A program made the translations under genes and the position numbers. Positions 14,141 through 36,604 of a stretch of DNA of 64,000 bases are shown here, piece after piece (position 1 is the first letter of the stretch; the number at the start of each line of letters is the position of its first letter). Location: positions 1-64,000 of the forward strand of contig JAPLQS010000056.1 in assembly GCA_026399575.1 (NCBI GenBank), written 5' to 3'. The stretch comes from Nitrosospira sp. Its GTDB lineage: Bacteria; Pseudomonadota; Gammaproteobacteria; Burkholderiales; Nitrosomonadaceae. Below the pieces are notes generated by a model, which worked only from the letters and a program-made list of their open reading frames with translations, did no database searches and was not told where the DNA came from.

Positions 14141-14152
14141 GCCTGAAGCGCA

Positions 14153-18321: not shown

Positions 18322-18366
18322 GTGCCGATCGGAATCTCTGAAACGATAGCGGCCGGAAAACAATAC

Positions 18367-19101: not shown

Positions 19102-19109
19102 GAGACGTC

Positions 19110-20472: not shown

Positions 20473-20486
20473 CGTCTTAATGCCTC

Positions 20487-21605
20487 TCAGATACCCAGCG
20501 CTTTTTTGGCTGGCGTGTACTTGAGCTTCAAGGCATTCGCCACCGCTTGGTAAGTAACCTGTCCGGCATGGATATTGAGGCCGTTCAGGAGATGCGGATC
20601 GTCAATGCAGGCCTGTCTGATACCCTTGTTGGCCAGCGCTACCGCAAAAGGGAGTGTGGCGTTATTAAGCGCAAAGGTCGAGGTGCGTGCAACCGAGCCC
20701 GGCATATTTGCAACGCAGTAATGTGTGACGCCATCCACCGTATAGACCGGATCAGCATGGGTAGTAGCGCGGCTGGTCTCGAAACAACCACCCTGATCAA
20801 TGGCGATGTCGATCACGACCGAACCGGGACGCATCTGCTTGATCATCTTGCGGCTAACCAGTTTGGGAGCTGTACCACCCGGCACCAGCACCGCGCCTAT
20901 CACCAGATCAGCCCCGATCACATATTGTTCAATCGAATCCATCGTTGAATGGATGGTGGTGAGGCTGGCACCAAATAGCTCATCCAATTCGCGCAGGCGG
21001 TCGAGGTTATTGTCAATAACGGTGACAAAGGCTTCCATGCCAAGCGCGATGCGCACTGCTTGCGTACCCGCAATGCCGCCGCCGATGACGACCACGTTGG
21101 CGGCTTTCACGCCTGGCACACCGCCGATCAGAATGCCCGCGCCACCTTGGGCCTTTTCCAGATAATGTGCGCCGATCTGTACTGACATGCGGCCAGCGAC
21201 CTCGGACATCGGTGCCAATAGAGGCAGTCCGCCGCGTGCATTGGTCACGGTCTCGTAAGCGATGGCGCTACAGCCAGATTTGAGCAGACCCTCGGTCTGC
21301 TCTGGGTCTGAAGCCAGATGCAAATAGGTATAGAGTATCTGTTGCTGACGCAGCATCCTGCACTCGTCAGGCTGCGGTTCCTTTACTTTCACGATCAAGT
21401 CGGCTGCAGCGAATATTTTGGCTGCAGTCCTGGCGATGGTTGCACCTGCTGACTTGTAATCCGCATCGTCCAAGCCGATGCCCGCGCCTGCTCGGGTTTC
21501 AACCAGCACCTTGTGGCCCTGATGAATCAATTCGCGCACCGAGGAAGGTGTCAGGCCCACGCGATACTCGTTATTCACAACTTCTTTTGGTACGCCGATC
21601 AGCAT
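20487..21605 (-). CDS. ald: Alanine dehydrogenase
   Basis: A 372-residue NAD-dependent alanine dehydrogenase, interconverting L-alanine and pyruvate plus ammonium. The N-terminus [20 protein letters not shown] has the pyruvate-binding Arg, VKVKEPQ and TYLHLASD are family stretches, and [13 protein letters not shown] is the NAD loop. Length and motifs are normal. It is convergent with the sigma-54 operon and has a ~315-bp region upstream. Confidence 0.93.
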
Positions 21606-21920
21606 ATCCTTACTCCGAATCTATATATTTAACCGGCCCGATGGCCCTCAATCCCAAAGGGAATCGATCTGGCAATGATACCTTAAAATGCATAACCCTC
21701 GTTCCCGCGTGTTCCCGGAAATTCACCCTGATTGCATTGATGTTTTAGCCAGCTCCCGATCATTTAATATTCCTTGCAACAACTCCTTTCCAGCGCTAGC
21801 ATGATGTGAAGTAATCACCGCATGTGAGTTACTTGCCATCGCTCACAAATCCAATCAATCAGATTATCTATAGTGACACGACATAAATCGGCGTCGCATG
21901 ACACAACAGGAGAACTCTAT
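21606..21920. other. Intergenic region upstream of ald and cytochrome P460
   Basis: About 315 bp without a credible gene; the short open frame in it has no family features. It contains a palindrome at 21801-21823 (separate entry) and the ribosome site AGGAG before the P460 start. Confidence 0.5.
21801..21823. promoter_or_regulatory. Palindromic site upstream of cytochrome P460
   Basis: Symmetrical arrangement ATG-N2-GTGA-N5-TCAC-N2-CAT, about 100 bp upstream of the P460 start. The half sites also pair with GTGA and TTACTT further right to give a 10-bp hairpin with one bulge (21809-21834). It could be a dimeric regulator site; GTGA/TCAC resembles CRP/FNR-type half sites but with spacing of five rather than six. 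Confidence 0.3.
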
Positions 21921-22478
21921 ATGAATCGCATCATGTCCATTATCACCGTCACGGCATTGGCCGCGGCTCTGATTGGCTGCGCGCAGGTGCCATCGGCACC
22001 GCTAGCCAATAACTTCAAGGATGGTGAGTTGCCGGTGCCTGCAGACTACAAGAGCTGGCCCAAGTTCCTGTCCGAAGTACAGCGCCCCGAGGTCAAACAA
22101 GTTCGCGAGATCTACATCAATCCGCTTGGACATCGCACGAAAGCCGGAGAGGCTTTCCCCAATGGCACCGTCTCCGTGATGGAAATTTACAAGGCACGAG
22201 AAGCGGCCGATGGTTCACCGCTCAAAAATTCCGATGGCAAGTTCGTCAAGGGTGAGTTACTGAAAATAGCCGTGATGGGAAAAGGTGCTGGCTGGGGTGA
22301 GAGCGTCACACCGGTGGAGCTGAAGAATGGTGATTGGATCTACGCCATCTACCTGTCTGATGCGAAAACAAAAGCACCGGATGATACCGCAACCTGTCGT
22401 GCCTGCCATTTGCCGCTGGCAGACAAGGATTATATTTTCCGTTACGACGAGTATTTCCAGAAGCGCGCAAACCAGTAA
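21921..22478 (+). CDS. Cytochrome P460 family lipoprotein
   Basis: A 185-residue protein with a lipoprotein signal (lipobox ending at Cys20, AALIGC), so it should be anchored on the periplasmic side of a membrane. A c-type heme motif CRACH is at 159-163. VMEIYKAREAADGS contains a Lys that is a candidate for the heme-Lys cross-link typical of cytochrome P460. The family oxidises hydroxylamine or handles NO in ammonia and methane oxidisers. The preceding SD is AGGAG. Maturation of its heme fits the ccm operon at 47.9 kb. Confidence 0.85.
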   Translation: MNRIMSIITVTALAAALIGCAQVPSAPLANNFKDGELPVPADYKSWPKFLSEVQRPEVKQVREIYINPLGHRTKAGEAFPNGTVSVMEIYKAREAADGSPLKNSDGKFVKGELLKIAVMGKGAGWGESVTPVELKNGDWIYAIYLSDAKTKAPDDTATCRACHLPLADKDYIFRYDEYFQKRANQ

Positions 22479-22738
22479 ACAGTTGGCATGCAGCGATCCG
22501 GGCGACAACGCTCTAAGTGCGTTCGGTGTGGTATGGAACGACTGTCACTGGCCAGTCGGATAGTGAAAGGATGAAGAAGAGGAAGGGAGAATTCCAAGCC
22601 ATTGTTTTTACTGGTGCCCGGAGCCGGAAACCGTAAGCTAGTATTCATGCGGCTGTGCGGTAGGCTGTCGGGATTGTGTCGGGATTGCGGGTCGATACCA
22701 AGAAAAGGAATCGCAACGGAATTGCGCCACACAACTTC
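22479..22738. other. Intergenic stretch at left end of the integrated island
   Basis: About 260 bp. It holds the left attachment repeat (22612-22628) and no convincing gene. An open frame beginning at a GTG at 22676 may extend the small membrane protein below. Confidence 0.5.
22612..22628. repeat. Left attachment site (attL), copy of tRNA-Leu 3' end
   Basis: TGGTGCCCGGAGCCGGA, identical to 34078-34094 and to the reverse complement of the T-arm, acceptor and CCA end of the tRNA-Leu gene. The match stops after 17 bases on both sides. Confidence 0.75.
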
Positions 22739-22909
22739 ATGCTATCATGGCTTATGGAACTCCTGCTCGGTTTCTTCGTTCTGTTCGTTATTCTGGTGGC
22801 CGTGGCCCCGGAGCAACTCATGCAGGTGCTGCTGGTCATCATGTGGGGAAGCATGGGATTGGCGACAGTGTACAGCGTGGGCAAGGCGGCATTCTCCGTT
22901 ATGTCTTAA
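22739..22909 (+). CDS. Possible small membrane protein at island edge
   Basis: About 56 residues, almost all hydrophobic: a short N-terminus then two predicted membrane helices around VLFVILVAVAP and LLVIMWGSMGLATVY. The end overlaps the stop of the opposite-strand polyvalent gene by four bases. No clear ribosome site precedes the ATG at 22739; starts at 22676 (GTG) or 22754 are possible. Could be a phage membrane protein or a chance frame. Confidence 0.3.
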   Translation: MLSWLMELLLGFFVLFVILVAVAPEQLMQVLLVIMWGSMGLATVYSVGKAAFSVMS

Positions 22910-25900
22910 TGCGCGGGCTCCTGCCGCAACTCCTTCACCCTCTCATTCAGTCCAGTCATTAACGTAGTGATCCTCGCTTCGGCCGCCTTGATCTGCTCCG
23001 GTGGCGCATTCTTTTTCACCAGCTCACGCTTGCGGGTGCGCATTTGTCCAACCATTCTCTCGGTAATGTTGGCGCGTGTGACCAACTTGTATTCAGGATT
23101 ATCATTCTTGTACTCTTCCACCGGTAGCCCGTCCTTGCGCCGGCCTTTCAACTCCGCCTCGACCTCATTGATGCGCTTCAGGTTGGTGTAGAACTTATTT
23201 CCCTGACTCGATTGCGCCCCGCTGTCGCCGTAGAACCGGCCAAGCAGAGGAATCTTATGCGGCGGAAGATCCTCACCAGTGACAAGCGCCATTATGGATT
23301 GCTCTAGTTTGCTGGACTCGCGCCCTACCCCGCCAGTTACTTGTCCGAACAGGTAGTCTATCTGGTCGGCTGTTGGACTCATCGCCCCTGGGGTGTATTT
23401 GGTGCCACCTGACAAGGTATTGATCGCCTCAGATAGCCATTTCGACGGATCGCTGGCAGTGTCCTTGTTGCGGGTAAACCCGGGTGACGGGGAAAGTTTG
23501 TTGAAATTCTCCCGGGCGATAGGCTTGCCCGTCCAATCCTTGTTTTCAGAAAGCGCAACCAAGGGGTCGATAGCTGTTGGCGCAATGGTTTGGATTGACA
23601 CACCGGAGGAGCCGAGCGGGTTGAATGCTTCCGCAAATACTCCAACCAGGCGCAAGATATGATCACCGGGGTTCTTGAATCCGCCCATGACAAACTCGGT
23701 CGGGATGCGCCCGATGTTCGGGACCGCATGGAAACCCAAGGGCATGGGCACGGTGAGATACTTCCTGTCACCGATAGGCAGGATCAGGTTGCGCTCACGG
23801 ATGAACTCTGGCGGCTCGTCATCATCGAATCCTGCTGCCAGCAATAGCATCGCCTGCATGGAGCCAAGCATCACCCCGCCGGCAATCGCCTTGGTACCGA
23901 AGCTGCTCAACCGGAACGTCTTGATGTTGCCCTTGTCCATCGTGGTCAAGGTTTCACCGATGCGCGCCGTGCCCTGCATGGCGGCATTGAAGAACGCATA
24001 CAGCGCACCAGCCTGCTGCCCAGCCTGCCCCTTGCGGTTGAAGTTTACCGAGATGTTCTTGGCGAGGCTGGCGGCCTGTGCCTTGTTCATGCCGTTATCC
24101 AGCGCCGTCTTATAAACGGATAGCCTGGTGGCGCCTTCCATCGTCTGATTGTAGTCAGATAGCCAGTCGAAGATCCACGCCGCTTTGTCTTGCGCTACTG
24201 CCAGCGGAACCTTGAGCGTCCCGTTTGCCGTGAATATCTTGCCCAGCTTGCTGTCGTGCCATGCGTGCGGATCGAGCGCGTGCTTGATTGCCTTCGCCCG
24301 ATCATCACTATCCCGGTACAGATCACGATAGCCGGTCATGCCGCCTTCGTTCTGCATTTCTTCCCACAGATCCGCCCAAACCGACTTGGTTTCATTCCCC
24401 TTGGTCGCTGCGCGCGTGGCGGAATAGACCCCGATCAGCGCCGGGATAATGTGCGAGGCCATTTCCTTCTGGTGACCGGCAATCGGGGTGGATGATAGGT
24501 TAATCAGCGAACCCTGAAAATCGCGCACCAGGTTGACCACACCGAAAATTGGATTGTATTGCGTGTTGATCGCGGCAAAATACCTGGTGATCTTGGCCGA
24601 TACGCCCAACAACCCCTCCATTTGCGGCGCGTCCAAGTTCTTCAGTGCTTCCGACATGCGCAGCGCGCGCGGGTTGCCCTCGTTGAACACTACCGCGCGT
24701 TCGTGGATCTCCCCGCTGCCGTCCTTAATCTTGGCGATGATGACGTTATTGCGGCTGCGAAACGTGGGATCGCTGCGCTCTTCCACTAATCCGGTTTGTT
24801 CATTCAGCACCCGCTCTGTCGGCACTTTGTCGAATGACCAGAAATCAGGATTGGGATTCAGCTTGACCAGCCCAGCCAACGCCACGGCTACCCGGTTCTT
24901 CTCCCCGCGCACAATCGCCTTTTCACGCTGCAGCGCAATGTTTGCAAGGATGTCGACCACTTTGCGGGTCGAACCGGTGCGGTGTTTAACCTCTTTCCCT
25001 TTAACCGAGAATCCCTGTCCGACGCCCATGGCGCCGTCGTGGTCCTCGCGCATCAACGGGATATAGTTGCGAAACATCTCTGCCCAACTGTTCGCCTGGT
25101 CTCTCGACACCAGCCCATAGGACACATACAGATTGCGGGTTTTATTGAGAATGGCGTCCACCCGGGCGGCGGCAGATTCAAGTTTCCTGCGCTTCTCTGC
25201 TGGGAGAGTGGCCAGGTAGTCCTTTGCTTCCTGCGTTTTCATGCCGGAACCGCCGTCCTGCATCTCAGGGTTGCCAGGGTTGCGCTCGGCAATCAACTTG
25301 TTCGCTTCTTCCGCGTGGCGCGCATGCAGGTACTGCTCCAGTTCTGGGATGGTCAGCCCGCGCATGGCCAACTCGGACAGCAGCGGCTTGAGTTCGCCAT
25401 TCACGAAATCAAGGGTACGCTTTGCGGATCTGCCGTGGTACAACTCTTCCTGCAGGTAGGCGTTGTACTTGTCGGCAATCGCTGCGCCTGATTCCTTGAC
25501 TGCGGCAATGACACGCTTCAGGTCAATATTTTTGTTCTGTAGCTTGTATAGCAGGTCGTCAATCTTGGATGGCTCTGGCGAATCCCACGATGCGCGGCTG
25601 CCGGTTGCGCCACCTTCCAGACCTAGCCCACCTTGGCGCGGCGGTATGGCGGGAGGGGCGGCTTCAATACCGGGGAGAGATTCGGCTGTGGTTGCCATGT
25701 AGGCTCCATCTGCTGTAAAGGCCCAATCACCGGATGTCGCCTGGTCGTCGTTGCGCAACTTGCCCAGTACGTTCTGCACATAGTTGCGTGCCGCCTCGTT
25801 ATCCTTGCCACGAATCCAGTCTCCAACTGACTTCATGCCGATCTTGTCAGCCAGGTTGGCCAGCCACTTGCGCACGGAGCGCAGGGTAACGTGGAGCGCA

Positions 25901-28900
25901 TCATTTTTCGCATACGCGCTGCCATTCGCGCCGATTGCCTCAGAAAAGTTCGCCAGCGCCTCATCAACCCCGCGCGCGAAAACGTAGGCATCAGCACGAT
26001 CTTTCAGTTCATCCTTGCTTTTGGCATAGCTCCTTGCCTTCTCTGCATCAGGGGATTTTGCCCAGGCCTGCGCATTTTTGCGAATAAACGCATCACGCAT
26101 GGCCAAGTCGCGCATAGTCTTGATATACTCATCAGCCGTCAAGAACCGACGAATTCCGTAATGGAGCAGTTCATGCCAGATAGTTCTGACCGCCTCATGC
26201 CCGCCAGCAATCCCGTCACGGAACAGGTAAATCTTCCCGCCTTTGACCATACCGCTGGCACGCCCTGCGTCATCTGCCCGTCCCGTGATATGCGACAGGC
26301 TATCTACGATCACGATAGAGGGTTTATGTCCAAGCTGGCCGACCGCCTGCTCGGCTACATCCAGAAGTTTCGCGGCAGATAACTGTTCACTTTCTGGGAC
26401 AAGGTTGGCGGAGCTGTAAATGGCAACGCCTTTGTCGGTTTCCTTGGTCTTGAGTTCGCCAAACAGATTGTCAAATGCTTCCACTACTGGCGCAATCTCT
26501 TCTGTTTTCAGGTACGGATACCGCCCAGCATCTCGTTTGAATTCTGCAATATCTACAACATTTGCCAAGTAGTCATTGTGGTATCCCTTTTCTGCCATCT
26601 TTGCAATGACATAATTCTCAAATGATCTGGCGGCGCGTTCGATGATTCTTGACCAATAGCCGTCCGCTTTCCCTTTATCAATGATTGAAGCGCGTGCTGT
26701 CATTGGGGATTCGTTTAGCGCCTCAACCAGTGCAGCGAATTTCGCCTCGACATCGGCTACGAAGTAGGTTTGACCGTTCTGGTGGTAGGCGAGGATGTGA
26801 TGACCGTCTTTGGAATATTCCGCCTCACTCACATCCACCGGAATATCCTTGGCTTCGATGATGTGAAACTTTCCGGTGGCAAGTAATAGACGTGCGAATT
26901 CCTTGGTCTTTGGGAATGCCTGGTCGATTGCTGCGGTGAGTGTGCTGCGGGTGTGGGGATTTACTACGGTTTGGGACGGTTGTTGCCGGGAGAATAAGCC
27001 AGATAAATCTCCCCCTAATACAAGTGAACGCCCCCCATTGAGAGCTTGTTCCAGTATTCCGGGTCTCTGGCCGCTCTCGCTTGATATAAGGGACTGGATG
27101 AGAATCCCGCGACGCATTGTAGCCTCACCAGCTCTAGATGAGCGCGCCACTCCAAGTCTTCCTGCGTCGGCAAAGCGGTCAGCCCCAACGGGTCGTCCTT
27201 GTCTGTCAACGAACTGTCTTGATGAGAAGTCATATTTATAGTCCTTGAGTTGCGGGAACTGATTGTGCAGTGTCGTGATGAAAGTATGGATCAAAGCGCG
27301 AGTTTTTGCAACATCATCCCCACGCCAAACAAGTGGCTCAACTCCATTCTTTGGATCTCCCGCTAATTGCTGCAGCGCGGGCTCAATATTCTGCGTCGTA
27401 CCATAACGCAATGCAGATGAAAGCATGTTGCTGGTTCTGCGGATAAGAGAGTCTGCTGTTAGACCAGCGGGGTCAGCAATAAACTTCTTGTTTGTATTGT
27501 AGGTATAATTTGCAACGGCGGCATAAACTGATTGTCCAAATTCGCCCGTTGAGAAATTACTGACATCAATGAACGCTTCTCCGTTATCTCGCTCATAGAC
27601 GTAGAATTGCTTGCCCTGGGGAGACTTGAACACAAACCGATGGTCTGCACCTGACGCATCGCGCTCATCTGCCCGTGTTCCATCTCCAATATATTCTGCT
27701 TCTGGATACACGTCCGAAAATACGCCTTCCAGTGACGTTTTGTTACTTACCGGATAGCGGAACAGTTCATCTACATCCGCAAGATTGGCCAGAAAATCAT
27801 GGGCGAATTCGGCATCAGAATTGTCGCTGCGGCTGAACAGCGCTGTGCCTTGGTCGGCTTTCTCAATCACCACCATGCGCGCATTGACGCCAGTGTTGAC
27901 CGGCAAGGATGAATCATTGAACGTACCTGACTCCAGTTTTTCACTGGTGCCGCCAATAGATTCCAGCCAGCCGCGGAATTCTGTTGCCTTCTTGTCGCTG
28001 CCGAAGAACACCCCCTCGCCCATGATCGCCACCAGCCTGCCGCCCGGCTTGAGCAATGAATAGGCATGCTGGACGTGCAGCGCATCACGCCGGTCACTGA
28101 AGGGCGGGTTCATCAGGATGCGGTCATATCCGCTGTCCACGCCATTATGCTGAATCGGCTTTAACTCATCACGGTTGTAGAATCCAAGGCTTTCCTTGTT
28201 GTCATCGCGCAGAACAACCCTCCCGCTTGCTGATCCTCCAGGATGTCCTGCCATTCTCCCAATCTTTCCGTCTGGAGCCTCAAAGGTGTCCCCATAGGTA
28301 TATGACTCCCTGGGCTTGATGCCCATAAAATCACTCCCTACAAGATAGAACCCCTTGGCTTCCAGCAACTCGCGCCGATCGCTTGCCATCTCAACCACGT
28401 CCGGCTCTACCCCGGCTTCACGGATGCGTTCTGCAATATGCCCCATGCCAGCAGAAGGCTCCAGCACGCTCATGCCTTCCTTGATGTCGGCGGCCTCCAC
28501 CATTGCATCGGCTGTGCTTTCCGGTGTTGGGAAGAAGTCCATGCCGTCATTTGAGCGCCCGATCATGGTGCGCTCCATTTCCTTGATCTTGCTGACCTCC
28601 TTGGGCGCTGTGCGTAGACCGATGAATTCCCTTAATGCAGCGCGCAACTCTGCCGGGGTTTCAATGCCCATGCCGGCTAGTCGCTTGCGGGAATCGTAGG
28701 TATTCTCGAATTGCCATGGCACGGATATTTTCTCGCCACGGCGCGCGGCCTTGCCTATTTTCTCTACCAGTTCTGCGCCAACGTCAGGATGAAGCGTAAT
28801 GCGCTTGTCGTTGTCACCTTCCCATATCCCGCGCTTGATCGCTTCGGACGGACTGAGAATTATCAGATTTTCATTGCGCTTGACCGGCAGCACAATGGCC

Positions 28901-29076
28901 GTTCCGCTGTACCCGGAACGGTTTATAGACGCCTCCGCCTCCGCTTTAGATGGGAATGCGGCGATACCGCCACCTTGAGTCCTGAAGGCCGAAACCTTGT
29001 GCAGACTCTCCTTGGCGAATTTCAGGTAGACATCGTTGACATCATCGGCCACCTTCAATATCCGCTGGCCAAGCAA
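22906..29076 (-). CDS. Giant phage polyvalent protein (DNA methylase-like, Zn-peptidase-like, LPD/PLxRFG domains)
   Basis: A 2056-residue multidomain protein. Residues ~175-420 contain an N6-adenine methylase-like domain (FFPTPESTADAMV, motif I LEPSAGMGH at ~205-213, motif IV NPPF at ~323-326). Around 820 lies an LPD1-like stretch (RAARSFENYVIAKM, NDYLANV), near 965 a zinc-peptidase signature HELLH, around 1640-1690 an LPD38-like region (VNFNRKG), and near 1945 the PLxRFG-like motif PLLGRFYG. This architecture is that of phage polyvalent proteins thought to be injected with DNA to counter host defence. The start is a TTG at 29076 with GGA upstream; the frame stays open to a stop at ~29122, so the N-terminus may be truncated. 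Confidence 0.8.
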   Translation of the reverse strand: MLGQRILKVADDVNDVYLKFAKESLHKVSAFRTQGGGIAAFPSKAEAEASINRSGYSGTAIVLPVKRNENLIILSPSEAIKRGIWEGDNDKRITLHPDVGAELVEKIGKAARRGEKISVPWQFENTYDSRKRLAGMGIETPAELRAALREFIGLRTAPKEVSKIKEMERTMIGRSNDGMDFFPTPESTADAMVEAADIKEGMSVLEPSAGMGHIAERIREAGVEPDVVEMASDRRELLEAKGFYLVGSDFMGIKPRESYTYGDTFEAPDGKIGRMAGHPGGSASGRVVLRDDNKESLGFYNRDELKPIQHNGVDSGYDRILMNPPFSDRRDALHVQHAYSLLKPGGRLVAIMGEGVFFGSDKKATEFRGWLESIGGTSEKLESGTFNDSSLPVNTGVNARMVVIEKADQGTALFSRSDNSDAEFAHDFLANLADVDELFRYPVSNKTSLEGVFSDVYPEAEYIGDGTRADERDASGADHRFVFKSPQGKQFYVYERDNGEAFIDVSNFSTGEFGQSVYAAVANYTYNTNKKFIADPAGLTADSLIRRTSNMLSSALRYGTTQNIEPALQQLAGDPKNGVEPLVWRGDDVAKTRALIHTFITTLHNQFPQLKDYKYDFSSRQFVDRQGRPVGADRFADAGRLGVARSSRAGEATMRRGILIQSLISSESGQRPGILEQALNGGRSLVLGGDLSGLFSRQQPSQTVVNPHTRSTLTAAIDQAFPKTKEFARLLLATGKFHIIEAKDIPVDVSEAEYSKDGHHILAYHQNGQTYFVADVEAKFAALVEALNESPMTARASIIDKGKADGYWSRIIERAARSFENYVIAKMAEKGYHNDYLANVVDIAEFKRDAGRYPYLKTEEIAPVVEAFDNLFGELKTKETDKGVAIYSSANLVPESEQLSAAKLLDVAEQAVGQLGHKPSIVIVDSLSHITGRADDAGRASGMVKGGKIYLFRDGIAGGHEAVRTIWHELLHYGIRRFLTADEYIKTMRDLAMRDAFIRKNAQAWAKSPDAEKARSYAKSKDELKDRADAYVFARGVDEALANFSEAIGANGSAYAKNDALHVTLRSVRKWLANLADKIGMKSVGDWIRGKDNEAARNYVQNVLGKLRNDDQATSGDWAFTADGAYMATTAESLPGIEAAPPAIPPRQGGLGLEGGATGSRASWDSPEPSKIDDLLYKLQNKNIDLKRVIAAVKESGAAIADKYNAYLQEELYHGRSAKRTLDFVNGELKPLLSELAMRGLTIPELEQYLHARHAEEANKLIAERNPGNPEMQDGGSGMKTQEAKDYLATLPAEKRRKLESAAARVDAILNKTRNLYVSYGLVSRDQANSWAEMFRNYIPLMREDHDGAMGVGQGFSVKGKEVKHRTGSTRKVVDILANIALQREKAIVRGEKNRVAVALAGLVKLNPNPDFWSFDKVPTERVLNEQTGLVEERSDPTFRSRNNVIIAKIKDGSGEIHERAVVFNEGNPRALRMSEALKNLDAPQMEGLLGVSAKITRYFAAINTQYNPIFGVVNLVRDFQGSLINLSSTPIAGHQKEMASHIIPALIGVYSATRAATKGNETKSVWADLWEEMQNEGGMTGYRDLYRDSDDRAKAIKHALDPHAWHDSKLGKIFTANGTLKVPLAVAQDKAAWIFDWLSDYNQTMEGATRLSVYKTALDNGMNKAQAASLAKNISVNFNRKGQAGQQAGALYAFFNAAMQGTARIGETLTTMDKGNIKTFRLSSFGTKAIAGGVMLGSMQAMLLLAAGFDDDEPPEFIRERNLILPIGDRKYLTVPMPLGFHAVPNIGRIPTEFVMGGFKNPGDHILRLVGVFAEAFNPLGSSGVSIQTIAPTAIDPLVALSENKDWTGKPIARENFNKLSPSPGFTRNKDTASDPSKWLSEAINTLSGGTKYTPGAMSPTADQIDYLFGQVTGGVGRESSKLEQSIMALVTGEDLPPHKIPLLGRFYGDSGAQSSQGNKFYTNLKRINEVEAELKGRRKDGLPVEEYKNDNPEYKLVTRANITERMVGQMRTRKRELVKKNAPPEQIKAAEARITTLMTGLNERVKELRQEPAH

Positions 29077-29157
29077 CTTTGTTCCAGGATTTGTCAGCAG
29101 GGCGCGACGGTTATCAAATTACACAAAAAGCAACTATCAGCCACTGAGGCTGATTGT

Positions 29158-29487
29158 GTGGCAACCACGGGGCAGGGCGGGCGCAGAGAGGCCGACCATA
29201 CAAGGGTTGCCGCTCTGTTCCCAACAGGTCGGGATCAAGACGCCAAGAAAAAATGGCTGTTGCATCACACGCTCTGGCTGGCAAAAGGAAGCGCAAGAGT
29301 GTTTACGCCGGTTTCTGTCGGGGATCGGTTCTACTGGAGCGATGCAATCACGGGATCGCTCTACAGTTGCGCAGGCCGCTGCCTGACATCCGATGTGCTG
29401 ACGATTGACACATCAGAGATGCGGGCAGGAGGGAGCGAGGCTGTTGAAATGCTGATGCAAGCCAAGTCTGGCGAGTTGTTTTTATAA
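29158..29487 (+). CDS. Possible phage protein, 109 residues, unknown
   Basis: The frame from a GTG at 29158 to a stop at 29485-29487 encodes a protein with plausible composition (LFPTGRDQDAKKKWLLHHTL, then a DRFYWSDAITGSLY segment). It runs in the same direction as the following small phage genes, 10 bp upstream of the next start. The frame stays open far upstream, opposite the polyvalent gene, so the true start is unclear. I do not recognise the family. Confidence 0.3.
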   Translation: MATTGQGGRREADHTRVAALFPTGRDQDAKKKWLLHHTLWLAKGSARVFTPVSVGDRFYWSDAITGSLYSCAGRCLTSDVLTIDTSEMRAGGSEAVEMLMQAKSGELFL

Positions 29488-29497
29488 GGGGGTTCTG

Positions 29498-29650
29498 ATG
29501 GGACAAGCAAAGCAGCGTGGAACATACGAAGAACGGAAGGCTACAGCATCCTGCCAGGGCAGAATCAAGAAGAAGCCTGCTGGCAATTGGTACAAGCAGG
29601 GCGTTACCTATGTCACAAAATTGCACTTCAAGTTGTTCGGGATGCGTTAA
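29498..29650 (+). CDS. Small phage hypothetical protein (MGQAKQRG type)
   Basis: A 50-residue basic protein starting MGQAKQRGTYEERKATA, an N-terminus that recurs in short phage proteins of unknown function. A strong ribosome site (AAGGGGG) precedes the ATG. It lies 12 bp before the zinc-finger gene and is likely in the same transcript. Confidence 0.55.
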   Translation: MGQAKQRGTYEERKATASCQGRIKKKPAGNWYKQGVTYVTKLHFKLFGMR

Positions 29651-29662
29651 AAGGGGTAATTG

Positions 29663-30190
29663 ATGAGCTTTCGTGAGAACTACGCGCGCGCGGTACTGAC
29701 TTCTGACCTCTCCGACTGCACGGACATTCGCAGGAACGGACACTCTACCGAGCCGCTGGCTGCCGTGGCGCTGGGCGCCAGTGAGTTAGGCTCCGGGTTG
29801 CTGCGGGTGAAGTGGAGTATGTCACGGAACGAGCCATGCCCAGAGATCATCCTGGCGTTGCTGGAATTGTGGCGCGGACTGGTGAGGAAGAAGGGATTGA
29901 AGCGGGGATGGAAGGACTTGGATTCGGTATCGGACACGATTGCACATCGATCATTCTGGTACTTCATGCACGATAAATGCCTGACTTGTACCGGGCTGGG
30001 CGCGCTGGCGATAGACAAGAACACGCCGGTACTGTCTGGCCATGTATGCCATGATTGCGGTGGCACCGGGAAACTCAGGTATGACTTCGACGAGTCGATC
30101 GCGGGGCGGGTGATAAATTGCGTGGCCTGGCTGCGCACCGAGGAATCGACTGCTGCGGCGCAGGCAGAAAATAAATTGGGTGAAGAATAA
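29663..30190 (+). CDS. Phage Q-like antitermination protein with DnaJ-type zinc finger
   Basis: A 175-residue protein. Its C-terminal half has a zinc-ribbon-like pair of motifs, CLTCTGLG and CHDCGGTGKLRYD, as in lambdoid Q-type late antiterminators; the N-terminal half has a helical region (EIILALLELWRGLVRKKG). Three intrinsic terminators follow before the lysis genes, as expected for the Q/late-gene switch. The ATG at 29663 has AAGGGG upstream; a TTG one codon earlier is less likely. Assigning Q function is inference from zinc motifs and context. Confidence 0.55.
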   Translation: MSFRENYARAVLTSDLSDCTDIRRNGHSTEPLAAVALGASELGSGLLRVKWSMSRNEPCPEIILALLELWRGLVRKKGLKRGWKDLDSVSDTIAHRSFWYFMHDKCLTCTGLGALAIDKNTPVLSGHVCHDCGGTGKLRYDFDESIAGRVINCVAWLRTEESTAAAQAENKLGEE

Positions 30191-30339
30191 AAACACTTGC
30201 GCTAAAGAATTGATTGATAAATAATGAATCCTCTTGCAATCTGGTAAAGGGTTGTGGCACAGCGAGAAAGTCTCCCCGAAAGGGCTGGCAACGGCGTCAG
30301 AAAGCCGGTCAACGCTGGAACGGCACCCTATACTTTAAT

Positions 30340-30366
30340 AAAACCGCCGCATGGGCGGTTTTTTCT
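30340..30366 (+). terminator. Intrinsic terminator after the Q-like gene
   Basis: ACCGCC (30343-30348) pairs with GGCGGT (30354-30359) through a 5-base loop, followed by a T-run. It lies ~150 bp after the Q-like gene; the space between (30191-30339) contains no gene and may be a leader or put-like region. Confidence 0.8.
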
Positions 30367-30392
30367 TTTCCACATTCGCTATCATTAAAAGA

Positions 30393-30420
30393 TTGAACTT
30401 TCGCGCACATCTGCTATTCT
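30393..30420 (+). promoter_or_regulatory. Putative promoter of the repeat protein gene
   Basis: TTGAAC at 30393-30398 and TATTCT at 30415-30420, spacing 16, lie between the terminator at 30340 and the ATG at 30464. A ribosome site GGGAGG (30449-30456 region) follows. Confidence 0.45.
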
Positions 30421-30463
30421 AAAAGTATATAAAAGTAAAAATATATCCGAGGGAGGTGGCGCC

Positions 30464-30745
30464 ATGAAAGTCATTATCACATTCGTTGCACTCGTGTTCG
30501 TATTGCTGGCAGCGCCCACAATGGCGCAAAAGACCATTTACCAGACATACCCTGGTGGCGTTGGAATAGATTATTCCAAGCCTGGGATGCGGGTTGATGG
30601 GAACAGGGCGCAGCCTACTTATCCTGGTAGCTCTGGCGCGGATTACTCGAAGCCGGGCTATGTGCGGGAAGGCAACACGATACGCCAGACATACCCTGGT
30701 GGCGGTGGAATAGATTATTCCAAGCCCGGCTATGTTGTTCAGTAA
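30464..30745 (+). CDS. Secreted tandem-repeat protein, moron-like phage cargo
   Basis: A 93-residue protein with a Sec signal (hydrophobic core VALVFVLLAAP, likely cleavage after AMA) and three tandem repeats built on TYPGG-x-GIDYSKPG, about 23-24 residues each. The coding DNA of repeats 1 and 3 is nearly identical over 45 bp (30542-30586 and 30686-30730). It has its own promoter and is bracketed by terminators, the arrangement called a moron in phages. Mature product should be periplasmic or exported; function unknown. Confidence 0.65.
   Translation: MKVIITFVALVFVLLAAPTMAQKTIYQTYPGGVGIDYSKPGMRVDGNRAQPTYPGSSGADYSKPGYVREGNTIRQTYPGGGGIDYSKPGYVVQ
30542..30730 (+). repeat. Near-identical 45-bp direct repeats inside the repeat protein gene
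   Basis: Segments 30542-30586 and 30686-30730 differ at only a few bases and are 144 bp apart, exactly two protein repeat units. The middle unit is diverged. Confidence 0.7.
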
Positions 30746-30855
30746 TACAATCAGATTTGGTGAATGCGGAGGCTGATCCGCTAATCAGCACGCTCGAATC
30801 GTCAGCTAAGAGCCGATAAGCCGGAAGAACGCAGCACCGGTCACCAACAACCCAT

Positions 30856-30880
30856 AACCGCCCATTGAGGCGGTTTTTTA
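30856..30880 (+). terminator. Intrinsic terminator after the repeat protein gene
   Basis: ACCGCC (30857-30862) pairs with GGCGGT (30869-30874), loop of six, followed by a T-run. Almost the same stem as at 30340, suggesting duplication or shared function. Confidence 0.8.
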
Positions 30881-30908
30881 TTTCCCGAATTCACCCCCCC
30901 GTGAATCC

Positions 30909-30942
30909 TGCCCGACACCTAAGACGTGCCGGGCATTTTTTT
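30909..30942 (+). terminator. Second tandem terminator before the lysis cassette
   Basis: TGCCCGACAC (30909-30918) pairs with GTGCCGGGCA (30926-30935) with one mismatch, then seven T. It ends only 11 bp before the ATG at 30953, so transcription into the lysis genes from upstream would need antitermination. Confidence 0.75.
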
Positions 30943-30952
30943 GGAGTAAATC

Positions 30953-31141
30953 ATGGCACTCAAAGATAAGCTCAAGAAATTCGGCAATGACGCTGATGCC
31001 GCCAATACCAAGGCCGACCCAGTTGTAGATGAGGCGCTGCAGAAGGTGGCGCGTAGCGGCTACAGTGCGGTGATCGTGCTGGTGGTGATGGCGCTGTCAT
31101 CCGTCGCCAGCGTCATAGCCTACGCAAAGTTGTTCTGCTGA
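30953..31141 (+). CDS. Small phage membrane protein, possible holin component
   Basis: A 62-residue protein with a charged N-terminus and one strong C-terminal membrane segment (VIVLVVMALSSVASVIAY). First gene of the lysis cassette; GGAG is placed 8 bases before the ATG. Its stop overlaps the next start by one base. Role as holin or antiholin is inferred from position. Confidence 0.6.
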   Translation: MALKDKLKKFGNDADAANTKADPVVDEALQKVARSGYSAVIVLVVMALSSVASVIAYAKLFC

Positions 31142-31377
31142 TGTCACCGGAAGAAATCAAGGCTATCGCCGCCGAGGTTGTTGTTCAACTCAAGGCAGGG
31201 AAGTCTGATTTCAGTATCCCGGCAGAAGCGCACTACAACAGCCACAAGAGCATGGATGACCTGGTGGCCGACTGGAAGATGGCCAAAGGGATATTTTGGA
31301 AGGCGTTTTTGGGGCTTGCCATATTGGGCGCAGTTGTGCTGGCTGCGGTAGGACTTGGTTATCACAAGCCATCGTGA
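31141..31377 (+). CDS. Small phage membrane protein, possible holin component
   Basis: A 78-residue protein: an amphipathic N-terminus (MSPEEIKAIAAEVVVQLKAG), a middle hydrophilic stretch, and one membrane helix near FLGLAILGAVVLAAVGLG. It directly overlaps the previous gene and the next. Function inferred from lysis-cassette position only. Confidence 0.6.
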   Translation: MSPEEIKAIAAEVVVQLKAGKSDFSIPAEAHYNSHKSMDDLVADWKMAKGIFWKAFLGLAILGAVVLAAVGLGYHKPS

Positions 31378-31742
31378 TCGATATACCGGGTTTGACAGAG
31401 CATTACGTGATGACCCTGAAATCAGGGTTCATCCTGTTCAACCTGCTCATGTTCCTGTACATAATCCTTGAACTCTCAAAGCGCAGCGAGGATTCCAAAT
31501 GCTCCTTTAACTGGGTCGATCTGCTGCTGATCCGAGGCAAGGCCAGCAAATCCGCCATAGTATTTCTTGGCTCCTGGCTGGTGCTGACTGTCAGCATGCT
31601 GTACATGACCATCATGGACCGGCTGACGGTAGAGCTTTTCACGGCCTATGGCGCAATAACTGTTGCGCCGGCAATAACCCGGCAATTCTCTCCCAACAAG
31701 GAAGACTTCTCTTCTACCACACCGGGAAAGGTTGACGAATGA
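31374..31742 (+). CDS. Phage membrane protein, three helices, candidate holin
   Basis: About 122 residues from the GTG at 31374 (111 from the ATG at 31410). Three hydrophobic segments (ILFNLLMFLYIILEL, VFLGSWLVLTVSMLYM and a third near AYGAITVAPAI) and a hydrophilic C-tail. The GTG overlaps the previous stop, and the end overlaps the endolysin start by four bases. Membrane topology and position make it a good holin candidate. Confidence 0.55.
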   Translation: MIDIPGLTEHYVMTLKSGFILFNLLMFLYIILELSKRSEDSKCSFNWVDLLLIRGKASKSAIVFLGSWLVLTVSMLYMTIMDRLTVELFTAYGAITVAPAITRQFSPNKEDFSSTTPGKVDE

Positions 31743-32299
31743 TCGATGTAACCCACCTGAAAGCAATCTGCCTGACTGCGAAGGCCGAGCGCCTGGCGCT
31801 ATTCATCGATCCGCTCAACGCGGCGATGGAAGAATTCGAGATCAATACCCCGCTGCGGCAAGCGGCGTTCCTTTCCCAGCTTGCGCACGAGTCCGGCCAA
31901 TTCCGCTACATGGAAGAGTTGGCCACAGGCGAAGCCTACGATCACCGGGCAGACCTTGGGAACACGAAACCGCAAGCAATCCTGATCGCGCAAGAGCATG
32001 GCAGCACGCCCGGCAAATGGTGGAAGGGGCACGGGCCAATCCAGATAACCGGGTTCGACAATCACATGGCCTGCGGTATCGCGCTCGGCCTGGATCTGAT
32101 GAATTCCCCCAAGTTGATCGCGGAGCCTGAAGGGGGCTGTCGTGCCGCTGGCTGGTTTTGGCGGACGCATGGCCTGAATAAACTGGCGGACGAAGGCGGC
32201 ATCACCCAGATCACGCGACGCATCAACGGCGGCACGAATGGGATTGCGGAGCGGCTGCAGTTCTACGCCCGCGCAAAAGTTGTGCTGGGCGTTAAGTGA
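31739..32299 (+). CDS. Glycoside hydrolase family 19 endolysin
   Basis: A 186-residue GH19 chitinase/lysozyme-like protein that would degrade peptidoglycan at phage lysis. The catalytic Glu is in AHESGQFRYMEE, with GHGPIQITGFDNH and GGCRAAGWFW matching the conserved core, and ITRRINGG near the end. No signal peptide, so release would need a holin. It overlaps both neighbours (ATGA with the candidate holin and TGATG with Rz). Confidence 0.85.
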   Translation: MIDVTHLKAICLTAKAERLALFIDPLNAAMEEFEINTPLRQAAFLSQLAHESGQFRYMEELATGEAYDHRADLGNTKPQAILIAQEHGSTPGKWWKGHGPIQITGFDNHMACGIALGLDLMNSPKLIAEPEGGCRAAGWFWRTHGLNKLADEGGITQITRRINGGTNGIAERLQFYARAKVVLGVK

Positions 32300-32838
32300 T
32301 GGGTTACGCCACGCTCATCAAGTATGCGCTTTGGGCGCTGCTGATTGCTGCCGTCATCGGAGGTATCTGGCTGGGCGTCCATAACATCTACCAAACCGGC
32401 TACACCGCTGGCACGAATGCCGAGCGAACCTCCTGGGAGCAGCGGGAGATAGTCAGGAAGGACGCTTTGGCCAAGGCGGTTGCCGAGGCCGTGAAGGCGA
32501 TCGCCGCCGCAAGGGCGGAGCAGGTAGCCGGATTAACGGGAGCTTTAGACCATGCCGCACAACAAAATACGAAACTTGGCCGTGATATTGCCGCTTTGCG
32601 CAATTCTGATGGGCTGTCCTTCAGTTCCAATATGCCCAGATGTGCAGCCGCCAATCCTGCCGCCGAAGATGAAGGTCCCGGCCTCGGTGGTGGCGGCGCC
32701 AGTCGAGTCCGACTTCCCCGCGAGATTGAAGAAAGCCTTTACGGAATTGCCGAAGACGCCCAGCGCGTCGTCATCCAGTACGAAACCTGCCGGCGCACCC
32801 TGACCCCGCTGGTCGAGGTCGAAGATGGTCAAAAGTAG
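32299..32838 (+). CDS. Phage inner-membrane spanin Rz (DUF2514-like)
   Basis: A 179-residue protein with one N-terminal membrane anchor (LLIAAVIGGIWLGVHNIY) and a long Ala/Lys-rich coiled coil in the periplasm, as in phage i-spanins. The ATG overlaps the endolysin stop. Another reading frame inside it encodes Rz1. The C-terminal tail resembles DUF2514. Together the two spanins would fuse inner and outer membrane at the end of lysis. Confidence 0.72.
   Translation: MGYATLIKYALWALLIAAVIGGIWLGVHNIYQTGYTAGTNAERTSWEQREIVRKDALAKAVAEAVKAIAAARAEQVAGLTGALDHAAQQNTKLGRDIAALRNSDGLSFSSNMPRCAAANPAAEDEGPGLGGGGASRVRLPREIEESLYGIAEDAQRVVIQYETCRRTLTPLVEVEDGQK
32552..32803 (+). CDS. Phage outer-membrane spanin Rz1 embedded in Rz
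   Basis: An 83-residue lipoprotein encoded wholly inside Rz in the +1 frame. The signal peptide ends in a lipobox (AILMGC), and the mature part is Pro-rich (VQPPILPPKMKVP) as is usual for o-spanins. Start and location, nested in the i-spanin gene, follow the lambda Rz/Rz1 plan. Confidence 0.75.
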   Translation: MPHNKIRNLAVILPLCAILMGCPSVPICPDVQPPILPPKMKVPASVVAAPVESDFPARLKKAFTELPKTPSASSSSTKPAGAP

Positions 32839-32931
32839 GGGGCGGATGCTGCGCCAGGCACGGGCGAAACTCTGGTTCAGGTTGGTCAATAAGATTGTGG
32901 CGCCACGTTCATACAAAGCAAGCCGGGCGCC

Positions 32932-33147
32932 GTGAGCGGGGAATCCCCCGACTACTTGGAAGAGGGGTCAAGATTCTCGTTTGGAGATCCGGCAAGGGTT
33001 GCCGAACTTCGACAACTGCGGTCATGCCACGGCTGCGCACACATCCTTGTGCTGCTGAATACGAAATACTGCGGGAAGGGCAAGAAGTTCGGAAAGAAGT
33101 GCGGAAAGTGGGAAAGTGCCTCTGCGGGACGCGCTACAGCGAATTGA
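32932..33147 (+). CDS. Small phage protein with Cys pairs
   Basis: A 71-residue protein from a GTG at 32932: a hydrophilic N-terminus (MSGESPDYLEEGSRF), a motif CHGCAH and a Lys-rich Cys segment (YCGKGKKFGKKCGKW). Cys and His positions would allow a metal site. It follows Rz by 93 bp. I do not recognise the family. Confidence 0.5.
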   Translation: MSGESPDYLEEGSRFSFGDPARVAELRQLRSCHGCAHILVLLNTKYCGKGKKFGKKCGKWESASAGRATAN

Positions 33148-33452
33148 AAGCCGACGATCATCCGCGCGACGTGATCACAGAATTTAATAAGGAAACGGGA
33201 GAATTCAAAACGGTGGTGGTCACCAAGGCCAAGCCGTGGCTTGATCCAACCACCAAGGGCGACGCCATGCTCGCTGCCGGGCTGGATGCTGCCGGCAACC
33301 AGGCTGGACTGTTTCAGGTCCGGCAGGGCGTCTTGAACGTCAAGGATTTCACCCTCGGCGTGGTCGGCCAGATCTCCCATGCGAACGGCACAGCTGGCGG
33401 GCATACTGATGCGGCCGCGATGTTTTCGATCTGGAAAGGCTGGGGCAGGTGA
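33099..33452 (+). CDS. Hypothetical phage protein, 117 residues
   Basis: From a GTG at 33099 the frame encodes a mixed hydrophilic N-terminus (CGTRYSELKADDHPRDVITE) then an Ala/Gly-rich tail with DAMLAAGLDAAGNQ. GGA precedes the GTG by seven bases. It overlaps the previous frame by 49 bp. The opposite strand has a long open frame too, so composition alone does not prove coding. Confidence 0.4.
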   Translation: MRKVGKCLCGTRYSELKADDHPRDVITEFNKETGEFKTVVVTKAKPWLDPTTKGDAMLAAGLDAAGNQAGLFQVRQGVLNVKDFTLGVVGQISHANGTAGGHTDAAAMFSIWKGWGR

Positions 33453-33458
33453 GCGCCT

Positions 33459-33713
33459 TCAGGTTCTAGATTTAATTCGGAATAATTCCCACATCGCCGG
33501 ATGCATGCGCCGGTGGCTGGGCGTTTCTGGCTCGGCCTCCCATTGTTGCCACACCCGGCAAGTAGTATGCACCTGTTCTGCGCACCAGATCTGCGCGGCG
33601 GTGATACCGAGGCCGAAGCGTACTTGTACCGTCTCGCGCCCGGCGCGCACCTCTGTAGGTGTGGGGTTGCGCGCCGCGTTACCCGCCCGGCTGCGGTTTG
33701 GATGGTTGGTCAT
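33459..33713 (-). CDS. Small helix-turn-helix protein, phage type
   Basis: An 84-residue protein whose C-terminal half has the pattern WQQWEAE...RRMHPAMWELFRIK seen in short XRE-like regulators of phages and plasmids. The ATG at 33713 has AGAGAGGAAC upstream. It is on the opposite strand to the lysis genes, as a repressor or transcription factor of the island might be. Its role is not established. Confidence 0.6.
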   Translation of the reverse strand: MTNHPNRSRAGNAARNPTPTEVRAGRETVQVRFGLGITAAQIWCAEQVHTTCRVWQQWEAEPETPSHRRMHPAMWELFRIKSRT

Positions 33714-33825
33714 AGTTCCTCTCTGCGTATGTCGCGGGCGCGGCGGGCGGCATCGCCACGGGTATGTTTTTCGTCGGCGGCGTCATGGCGGCTGCCGTCG
33801 TCTTGTCGATTGCCACCTGATACAT
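33679..33825 (-). CDS. Possible 48-residue protein upstream of the HTH gene
   Basis: A Pro/Ala-rich frame starting MYQVAIDKTTAAAM, preceded by AGAGG four bases before the ATG and overlapping the HTH gene by 35 bp. No known motif; it may be only the leader of the HTH gene. Confidence 0.25.
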   Translation of the reverse strand: MYQVAIDKTTAAAMTPPTKNIPVAMPPAAPATYAERNYDQPSKPQPGG

Positions 33826-33901
33826 TTTGCCTCTGTGCACTATACTGGCCACCCTTCCTCCCCGTTTTACCTATTCTGCATAGATTTTATCTGTTCTGCA
33901 T

Positions 33902-33936
33902 AAATTCCCCGCTTGTTGGGATGATGCGGGGAATTT
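33902..33936. repeat. Perfect 11-bp inverted repeat near the right end of the island
   Basis: AAATTCCCCGC (33902-33912) and GCGGGGAATTT (33926-33936), with 13 bases between. There is no T-run. Just to the left, a TTCTGCATA sequence occurs twice within about 25 bp. The region 33826-34077 has no gene; the palindrome could be an operator or a recombination/accessory site next to the attachment site. Confidence 0.35.
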
Positions 33937-34077
33937 GCGGGGATAGACTACCGTTTGAAGCACGAAGATGTCAACGGATATTAAATTTAAGGGCGCGGAG
34001 AATCCGCTAGAAGTGGCTTATTTGTTGAGTTTGAGGGGTGAAGCAGGAAGAAGCGGGGAGATGTTAAAATGTTACCG

Positions 34078-34094
34078 TGGTGCCCGGAGCCGGA
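34078..34094. repeat. Right attachment site (attR), within tRNA-Leu
   Basis: 17 bp identical to 22612-22628 and forming the 3' end of the tRNA-Leu gene, including CCA. The tRNA remains complete at this end. Confidence 0.75.
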
Positions 34095-34166
34095 GTCGAA
34101 CCGGCACAGCCGTTTCCAGCCGAGGGATTTTAAGTCCCTTGTGTCTACCAATTTCACCATCCGGGC
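34078..34166 (-). tRNA. tRNA-Leu (anticodon TAA)
   Basis: An 89-base class II tRNA with CCA encoded. GCCCGG begins the acceptor stem (34161-34166), the anticodon loop reads TAA within CTTAAAA, a long variable arm follows, and the T-arm loop GTTCGACTC is intact. It is the counterpart of E. coli leuZ and the integration target of the island. Confidence 0.92.
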
Positions 34167-34352
34167 GATTGGGGCTACGGAGGGGGCCACATGCACATAT
34201 GTCGCCTGAAAGCTACGTATTTATGGCGTTTCAGAACTGATAACCCTGCAAGTTACAAACTTTCGCCCCAAGTTTATTTTACCGGATTTCCACTCTGGAG
34301 CTACGTATTTCTAGGATTGACGCCTACTCCAGGTCGTCATGACAGAGAGACT
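34167..34352. other. Intergenic region between tRNA-Leu and recQ
   Basis: About 185 bp with no gene. AGCTACGTATTT occurs twice, at 34211-34222 and 34299-34310. Upstream control of tRNA-Leu and the end of recQ must lie here. Confidence 0.4.
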
Positions 34353-36215
34353 CTAAACTTCATTCCTCACATCCTCCACCACTCGCAAAAACGCATCTCC
34401 ATACCTTGCCAGCTTGGCTCGCCCTACCCCACTGATCTGAGCCAGATCGGTCAAGCTGCCGGGGCGGCGATTGAGAATTTCCAGCAAAGTGCTATCGTGA
34501 AAAATCACATAGGGTGGCACACCTTGGTCGCGGGCGAGTTCCAGGCGTTTTGCTTTGAGCGCCTGCCACAATGGGTCTTCGCTGGCTCCGGCAAAGACCT
34601 CGCGTAGGCGAGAACTGCGTTCTGCTTTACTGATTTTGCGTTTGACCAGTTCAGCGTCGCGCCTTAACCATACAGATTGTTCGCCACGTAATACTGGGCG
34701 GGCAGTTTCGGTAAGCTTCAGCCCGCCATAAGCTTCCATGTCCGTATTGAGCAAACCGGCTGCTATCAGCTGGCGAAAGACGCTGCTCCATAGCGCCTGT
34801 GCCAATTCCTTGCCGATACCGAAGGTGCTGAGTTGCTGGTGATGGAATTGTTCTACCTTCGCGGTGGCCTTGCCGAGCAGCACGTCAATCAGATGGGCGA
34901 CACCAAAGCGTTGGCCGGTGCGATAAACGCAGGACAGCGCCATCTGCGCCGCCTGTGTCGCATCCCAAGTATCCATTGGTGTAAGGCAGTTGTCGCACTG
35001 ATCGCAATTGCCGGGAAGTTCTTCGCCAAAATAGCGCAACAGAATCTGGTGGCGGCAGGCGGTGGATTCGCAGAAACCCAGCAGCGCATCGAGCTTTTGC
35101 AGTTCCACCCGTTTGCGCTCCTCGGATGCGTCGCCGGAAAGCAGCATCTGGCGCATGGAGACCACATCGCCCAGGCCGTAAACCATCCACGCATTCGCAG
35201 GCAGGCCGTCGCGCCCGGCGCGCCCGGTTTCCTGATAGTAGCCTTCCATGCTCTTGGGCAGGTCGAGATGCGCGACGAAGCGCACATTGGGTTTGTCTAT
35301 CCCCATGCCGAACGCGACGGTCGCGACAATAATGACGCCCTCCTCGCGCAGAAATCTTTGCTGGTTGGTGTTGCGGGTGGCAGCGTCGAGTCCGGCGTGA
35401 TAGGGCAATGCATTCCAGCCCTGTCCCTTGAGCCACGTTGCGGTCTCTTCAACTTTCTTGCGCGACAGACAATACACTATGCCCGCATCGTTTGGATGTT
35501 CGGCTTCGAGAAAGGCCTGCAACTGCTGGCGCGCACTGGCCTTCTGCGTGACATGGTAGCGGATGTTGGGGCGATCGAAGCTGGAGACGGACTGCTGCGC
35601 CTGCTCCAGCGCCAGCCGCTCGACGATCTCGCGCCGCGTCGGCGCATCTGCCGTGGCTGTCAGCGCAATACGTGGCACATTGGGAAAGCGTTCGTGCAAC
35701 ACGGTCAGCTCGCGATACTCAGGACGGAAATCGTGCCCCCACTGAGACACGCAATGCGCCTCGTCTATGGCGAACAGGGCCAACCCGCTGCTCTCTTGCA
35801 ACTGCTCCAGCAGATCAAGAAAACTCTCCATCATCAGACGCTCGGGCGCGACATACAGCAGCTTCAATTCGCCGCGCAGCAAACACCCTGACACCTCGCG
35901 CGCCGCAACAGCATCCAGGCTGGAGTTCAGGAAAGCGGCTTTCACGCCAAGCTGCTTGAGCGCATCCACCTGATCCTGCATCAGCGCGATCAGCGGTGAC
36001 ACCACGATGCCGACTCCGCGCCGCAGCAAGGCAGGAATCTGGTAGCACAACGACTTGCCGCCGCCGGTCGGCATCAGCACCAATGAATCGCCCCCCGCCG
36101 CGACATGCTCAACGATGGCCTGCTGCGCGCCACGAAAGGCCGCGTAGCCGAAAACATCGCGCAGGATTTGCTGGGCGGATTGGGAATGAGTGGAGACAGG
36201 CTTTCTGAGCACCAT
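34353..36215 (-). CDS. recQ: ATP-dependent DNA helicase RecQ
   Basis: A 620-residue RecQ: Walker [13 protein letters not shown] box with the aromatic-rich loop [17 protein letters not shown], helicase motif [12 protein letters not shown], the zinc-binding Cys residues (CRHQ...CDQCDNC), winged helix, and a C-terminal HRDC domain with [15 protein letters not shown]. Acts in recombination and replication-fork repair. The length is typical. It lies ~190 bp from tRNA-Leu, on the same strand. Confidence 0.94.
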
Positions 36216-36293
36216 CAGTCTGATCGATTCTTTTTGAGTACGAGTGGTTAATATTCAGTGCGCACCAGAAGCTTTACCTGCGACCGGGCCTCG

Positions 36294-36521
36294 TCAGCTC
36301 ATCTCAATCACTCGTGCCACATCACCATGGCACTCCGAACACAAACCTACCAGCAGCAAGTCGCCTGTTTTGACTGCCCCCGAGAAATTAATGATGGTTA
36401 CTTCATGACGGCACTTACCGCACCAGACATTAGAGAGTAGGAGCTTCTTGCTATAACTGGGAATGGCTGCCCACAGCTTGGCTGCGGGTGCAGTAAATTT
36501 AGGAATGGATTCGATGGTCAT
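36294..36521 (-). CDS. Hypothetical protein with CxxC pairs (zinc-ribbon-like)
   Basis: About 75 residues from the ATG at 36521 (frame open from 36581). Two CxxC motifs, CGKC and CSEC, with His residues close by, suggest a zinc-ribbon. It may be part of a short operon with the retropepsin gene 23-80 bp upstream. No clear ribosome site. Family not recognised. Confidence 0.5.
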   Translation of the reverse strand: MTIESIPKFTAPAAKLWAAIPSYSKKLLLSNVWCGKCRHEVTIINFSGAVKTGDLLLVGLCSECHGDVARVIEMS

Positions 36522-36604
36522 ATGCTTATGTATGGCACTGATGGTGCTACACGGCTTTATATGGGATTGCAGCATCTTCATCGGACTTTTAACATTTTAC
36601 GGGA

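Follow-up and report, generated by a model that had tools for sequence, protein, structure and literature searches.

An 11.5-kb island beside the tRNA-Leu(TAA) gene of this Nitrosospira genome is very probably a decayed and rearranged prophage remnant that integrated into the 3' end of the tRNA gene, later lost its integrase, and is now without most of its replication and structural genes. In the 64,000-nucleotide stretch that we analyzed (hereafter the window), it is bounded by an exact pair of the sequence TGGTGCCCGGAGCCGGA at positions 22612 to 22628 and 34078 to 34094, with a start-to-start distance of 11,466 bp. This 17-mer is the CCA-bearing 3' end of tRNA-Leu(TAA), which is encoded on the minus strand at 34078 to 34166. 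The original prediction had placed an exact copy of this end approximately 11.5 kb away from the gene, and the pair is unique in the 2.09-Mb assembly of 93 contigs, where the 17-mer occurs twice, both times on the same strand, and where its letters read backwards do not occur at all. Chance copies would be expected at a rate of about 1.5e-5 in 64 kb on both strands (first-order Markov estimate). Ten 17-mers are exactly repeated on the plus strand of the window, i.e., the one of tRNA-Leu and nine overlapping ones at 30541 to 30582 and 30685 to 30726 that represent repeats within one small gene. The attR-like copy (34078 to 34094) is part of a complete tRNA gene with encoded CCA (Rfam tRNA match at 34081 to 34166) that is identical at 89 of 89 positions to the tRNA genes of 2 same-genus genomes without the island (G004 and G007), confirming that the tRNA was left intact. 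The attL-like copy (22612 to 22628) is contiguous with the left flank in a third genome, G001, and most likely is the displaced original 3' end of the tRNA, still joined to its old downstream flank.

Support for this arrangement comes from the predicted empty site, which is present in G001: the sequence of the window up to 22628 is joined there to the sequence from 34078 onward with a single 17-mer, and the same contig carries both flanks (93% identity over 13 kb and 91% over 3.7 kb). In gapped alignments, window positions 9583 to 22628 correspond to positions 1 to 13049 of the stretch fetched from G001 (93%) and window positions 34078 to 37739 to its positions 13033 to 16716 (91%), and the 17-bp overlap of these 2 alignments is the single 17-mer. 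The comparison rests on the gapped alignments and not on ungapped letter counts, which give 43 of 77 (left) and 111 of 140 (right) identical letters in flanks that contain small insertions and deletions. On the island sides of the 2 junctions, only 10 of 60 and 15 of 60 letters agree with G001, as expected for foreign DNA. The same data bear on the idea that the island is an assembly chimera in which a common 17-mer led to a false connection between phage DNA and the chromosome. A draft genome of 93 contigs, with no more than 17 bp as an anchor, would leave room for such an artifact. It would, however, take false joins at both ends exactly at the biological attachment boundary, and the two flanks otherwise follow the order of G001 throughout the compared stretch, which makes this reading extremely improbable.

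Both flanks are found on one contig in 3 of 8 other same-genus genomes (G001, G004, and G007), and all 3 are without the island. Flank genes are on separate contigs in G003 and G008, while G002, G005, and G006 gave no match to the left flank. Neither the large protein described below nor the DNA of positions 29000 to 34077 was found in any of the 8 genomes, save for one 34-bp match of the latter in G002; as these genomes are 51% to 99% complete, absence of the island is firm only where both flanks were seen. At its tRNA, G004 retains a 22-bp piece of the left junction, and a HigB-like toxin/HTH antitoxin pair is found there between a cytochrome P460 gene and tRNA-Leu at the position of the island (contig C22; locus L013, 3181 to 3787). 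The site in G007 holds a 5.4-kb stretch with genes for an oxidoreductase, a carbonic anhydrase, and a sigma-54 activator, which we do not take as evidence for a second mobile island, as no second 17-mer was found within 4 mismatches on the strand scanned. Separately, G003 has three partial tRNA-Leu-like matches within 560 bp (contig C75, 23203 to 23763) that perhaps represent a tRNA array or remnants.

The proposal that phage genes occupy the interval between the repeats is borne out by its content, because phage families are found inside, whereas 10 flanking proteins compared with PHROGs (a subset of the flanking genes) gave matches that we judged to be of housekeeping type, e.g., RecQ helicase and alanine dehydrogenase. 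A point against the favored reading is that the island does not stand out by its GC content (0.551 compared to 0.543). Its left part is dominated by a gene on the minus strand (22906 to 29076) for a protein of 2056 amino acids that combines a methyltransferase-like region with the domains LPD37 (E 1.6e-94), LPD1 (E 3.7e-14), and LPD38 (E 5.1e-42) by Pfam and PHROGs, including matches to methyltransferase PHROGs. With LPD-type domains and an enzymatic domain in one giant chain, it qualifies as a large polyvalent protein. As far as the family of polyvalent proteins of phages and conjugative elements is outlined in PMC5512222, the island protein resembles its members as a multi-domain giant with LPD domains and a methyltransferase-like region, but it differs in that it probably lacks its N-terminal part and is found without its phage. 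The open frame extends to 29118, and residue 2 of the protein aligns with position 1670 of phrog_11358, while residue 146 of the open frame aligns with residue 1667 of the D66 phage frame (itself cut at the edge of its locus); these offsets suggest that an N-terminal part is probably missing. It is also possible that the N-terminus is naturally different rather than lost, because polyvalent relatives vary widely in length and the 2231-residue frame of Nitrosospira sp. Nsp11 aligns over its C-terminal 910 residues only. Cargo with a function in defense was considered and discarded, as the only matches from a PADLOC analysis of 8 island proteins were of methyltransferase type and fell on the polyvalent protein (mad2, E 2.2e-14, and 2 others).

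The 277 bp between the stop of the polyvalent gene and the left repeat (22629 to 22905) contain a convergent small gene on the plus strand (22754 to 22909; overlapping stop codons) for a protein of 51 amino acids that appears by eye to be of membrane type and has no PHROG match up to E 10. Similar small ORFs follow the stop of the polyvalent gene in at least 7 of 33 viral loci as judged by eye, a lower bound that comes from at most 4 ATG-started ORFs per locus and from loci of which some end early.

The right part of the island is a lysis cassette on the plus strand from 29.1 to 33.4 kb. The polyvalent frame ends head to head with this operon at 29118/29119, and it is likely that the 2 units face opposite ways across a rearrangement junction near 29118, although an assembly join at this place in a draft of 93 contigs is possible instead. 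No match was obtained for the first stretch of the cassette (29119 to 29487), which is followed by a gene for a protein of 176 amino acids (29660 to 30190) with a CxxC-type zinc motif and a weak likeness to Q-type antiterminators (phrog_127, E 0.0084; phrog_3931, E 0.00053). Apart from itself, this protein found a single weak counterpart (E 7.3e-5) among 399 genomes of the order, and no match was seen in phages. Next come a 93-amino acid protein (30464 to 30745) that is made of three 24-residue repeats (TYPGG..DYSKPG) and has, by eye, a signal-like start, and then 3 small ORFs of membrane type by eye (30953 to 31141, 31141 to 31377, and 31374 to 31742) that are candidate holins or associated proteins, the third one matching the membrane protein family phrog_1322 (E 2.9e-7). 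The core of the cassette is formed by a GH19 endolysin (31739 to 32299; PF00182, E 3.3e-11; phrog_181 endolysin, E 6.7e-55) and an Rz-like inner-membrane spanin (32296 to 32838; phrog_2466, E 1.4e-8). Nested in the latter in another frame is a putative lipoprotein gene (32552 to 32803) with an LMGC lipobox by eye and a PHROG match at E 0.36 only (phrog_812, Rz-like); lipoprotein frames nested in Rz are of the kind called Rz1. Further downstream, the best match of the stretch at 33111 to 33452 has an E value of only 0.8, and a minus-strand gene at 33459 to 33713 encodes a putative DNA-binding protein of 84 amino acids with a very weak repressor-like match (phrog_7950, E 0.036). Two noncoding stretches on the plus strand (30230 to 30375 and 30765 to 30890) end in terminator-like hairpins (fold z-scores of −2.14 and −1.02) and reach the gathering score of no Rfam family. 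A search with the endolysin gave 17 loci at 52% to 60% identity. Scans of viral contigs with 31374 to 31742 and 29663 to 30190 confirmed no close relative of the lysis half.

Among the island ORFs scanned with Pfam and PHROGs (a selection that includes a subset of the small ORFs), we found no integrase, terminase, portal, capsid, or tail family. The packaging, capsid, tail, and replication genes of a functional temperate prophage were likewise not seen among them, and we rejected this interpretation. PF00589 integrases are encoded at 6 places in the genome, on contigs C17, C37, C49, C60, C82, and C87, and none on contig C8 that carries the window. Integrase-type sequences from 4 other tRNA-Leu(TAA) neighborhoods matched the island no better than at E 0.26. 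No integrase gene was thus found beside an attachment site, and the island is at most a decayed member of the tRNA-integrated islands. The notion of a typical tRNA-targeted integration is supported by the repeat, the empty site, and the intact tRNA, with the additions that the polyvalent gene and the lysis cassette are opposed across a likely rearrangement, that the gene content is that of a remnant and not of a phage genome, and that no integrase was found. This last point counts against our preferred explanation, since no enzyme is present to which the 17-mer could be tied, and for lack of a detected integrase autonomous excision of the island is not supported.

The absence of an integrase could also be accommodated if the island were a small but complete mobile element, or a phage satellite, for which a helper supplies the integrase in trans. 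In line with this reading, the two copies of the 17-mer have not diverged, and neither the lysis genes nor the large polyvalent frame is interrupted. Satellites of the PICI or P4-like kind carry their own integrase, regulator, primase, or capsid-hijacking genes. None of these was found among the ORFs scanned, nor was a clear repressor or a packaging family, and the island was not found in the 8 other same-genus genomes. Moreover, the polyvalent protein looks truncated and the 2 gene cassettes stand head to head, so that we regard a satellite as very unlikely.

More can be learned from relatives of the polyvalent protein. Among 33 viral loci, the closest C-terminal part (69% identity over residues 1144 to 2053) is encoded by IMGVR_UViG_2671180073_000002 (65,355 bp), and a match with the same coordinates in Nitrosospira sp. 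Nsp11 (NZ_FRBV01000002.1) indicates that this record is probably the prophage of that strain, i.e., the same DNA. A second Nitrosospira locus (L245) shows 70% identity over a shorter part. The Nsp11-like prophage resembles the island in the order of polyvalent C-terminal part, similar small convergent ORF, and attachment site, and in its association with the same tRNA-Leu(TAA), but it has about 61 kb between its repeats and possesses an integrase beside the tRNA as well as genes for terminase, portal, and major head protein. An exact 47-bp repeat that corresponds to the 5' half of tRNA-Leu(TAA) forms its two ends (arrangement in record G061: 1172 to 1260, 1215 to 1261, and 62214 to 62260) and places it on the 5' side of the tRNA, unlike the island. 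An N-terminal fragment of an Arm-DNA-bind_3 integrase lies on the 3' side in the same record, making this tRNA a two-sided integration hotspot.

Polyvalent-phage DNA abuts tRNA-Leu(TAA) in 4 places, with geometries that differ: in the window (via the far repeat), in the Nsp11-like record, and in G027 and G030. In the latter two, C-terminal polyvalent fragments lie just upstream of the tRNA, within approximately 350 bp of its 5' end (G027, contig C1, 1488427 to 1488660; G030, contig C11, 37834 to 38007). In a survey of the 33 viral and 8 genome loci, with flanks of at most 10 kb that are often cut, a piece of tRNA-Leu(TAA) was seen only in the Nsp11-like DNA (L055 and L242, 2 copies of it). In two other relatives, the polyvalent gene is shortly followed by tRNA-Leu(CAG) (L245, 3127 to 3213; L072, 12770 to 12856). 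Three of the 8 genome loci with polyvalent relatives belong to Nitrosospira or Nitrosovibrio and the other 5 do not, which weakly hints at Nitrosomonadaceae as the host family. In the literature on prophages, Nitrosospira, and tRNA genes, nothing on this element appeared among the matches listed.

These relatives allow for a reading in which the island has 2 separate sources. The repeat would then stem from an older island at the 3' end that encoded an integrase of its own, whereas the polyvalent and lysis fragments would have entered this island later or would derive from different phages. The Nsp11-like prophage, a near relative by its polyvalent gene, occupies the 5' half of the tRNA, and its endolysin belongs to another PHROG family and shares a strand with the polyvalent gene, while the two are opposed in the window. 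In addition, Arm-DNA-bind_3 integrase sequences are found on the 3' side of tRNA-Leu(TAA) in 2 relatives. Given one near relative in the other half of the tRNA and two near tRNA-Leu(CAG), the polyvalent half indeed need not have brought the 3'-end site. On the other hand, the 277 bp between polyvalent stop and repeat, with the small gene between them, are much like the 236 bp from polyvalent gene to repeat in the 5'-half prophage, suggesting that the attachment-proximal end is ancestral to this phage. We therefore view 2 sources as a possibility worth keeping in mind yet not the probable history. If the Nsp11-like gene order is ancestral, the divergent cassettes of the window would require either an inversion with deletion near 29118 or a composite of 2 phages.

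Prophages and islands integrate into tRNA 3' ends by means of tyrosine recombinases. The remnant that we favor matches such elements in the 3'-end repeat at its far boundary, its intact tRNA, and the one-copy empty site, but it is short and rearranged, with no integrase detected and most phage genes missing. We envision that a single temperate phage or an element composed of 2 phages would have entered the 3' end of tRNA-Leu(TAA) by site-specific recombination, presumably through a tyrosine recombinase. The incoming element would have supplied a new 17-bp 3' end that kept the tRNA intact and pushed the original one to 22612 to 22628. Subsequent loss of the integrase and of nearly all replication and structural genes, together with rearrangement, would then have left an 11.5-kb relic of polyvalent-protein gene, convergent small gene, and lysis cassette. 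The lost integrase may have been of the Arm-DNA-bind_3 class, which we take to be P4-type, judging by integrases at the same tRNA in other genomes and not by the island itself: a 407-amino acid Arm-DNA-bind_3 frame downstream of it in G030, the fragment in the Nsp11-like record, and a C-terminal fragment downstream of it in G015. One more integrase fragment is located approximately 2.4 kb downstream of this tRNA in G012.

The island is thus an ordinary kind of insertion that apparently can no longer move by itself, and its value is that of a prophage relic with clean boundaries at a tRNA hotspot, for which an empty site provides confirmation. A lineage of polyvalent phages may have remained faithful to tRNA-Leu genes while switching integration modules between the 5' half of tRNA-Leu(TAA) in one host (47 bp) and its 3' end in another (17 bp), with the same polyvalent and small-gene end at both sites; we consider this scenario rather doubtful, not least since tRNA-Leu(CAG) is the neighbor of two polyvalent relatives. 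A modest additional interest lies in the contrast with a related phage that is inserted in the 5' half of this tRNA gene, which would make it possible to ask how related phages change their attachment site.
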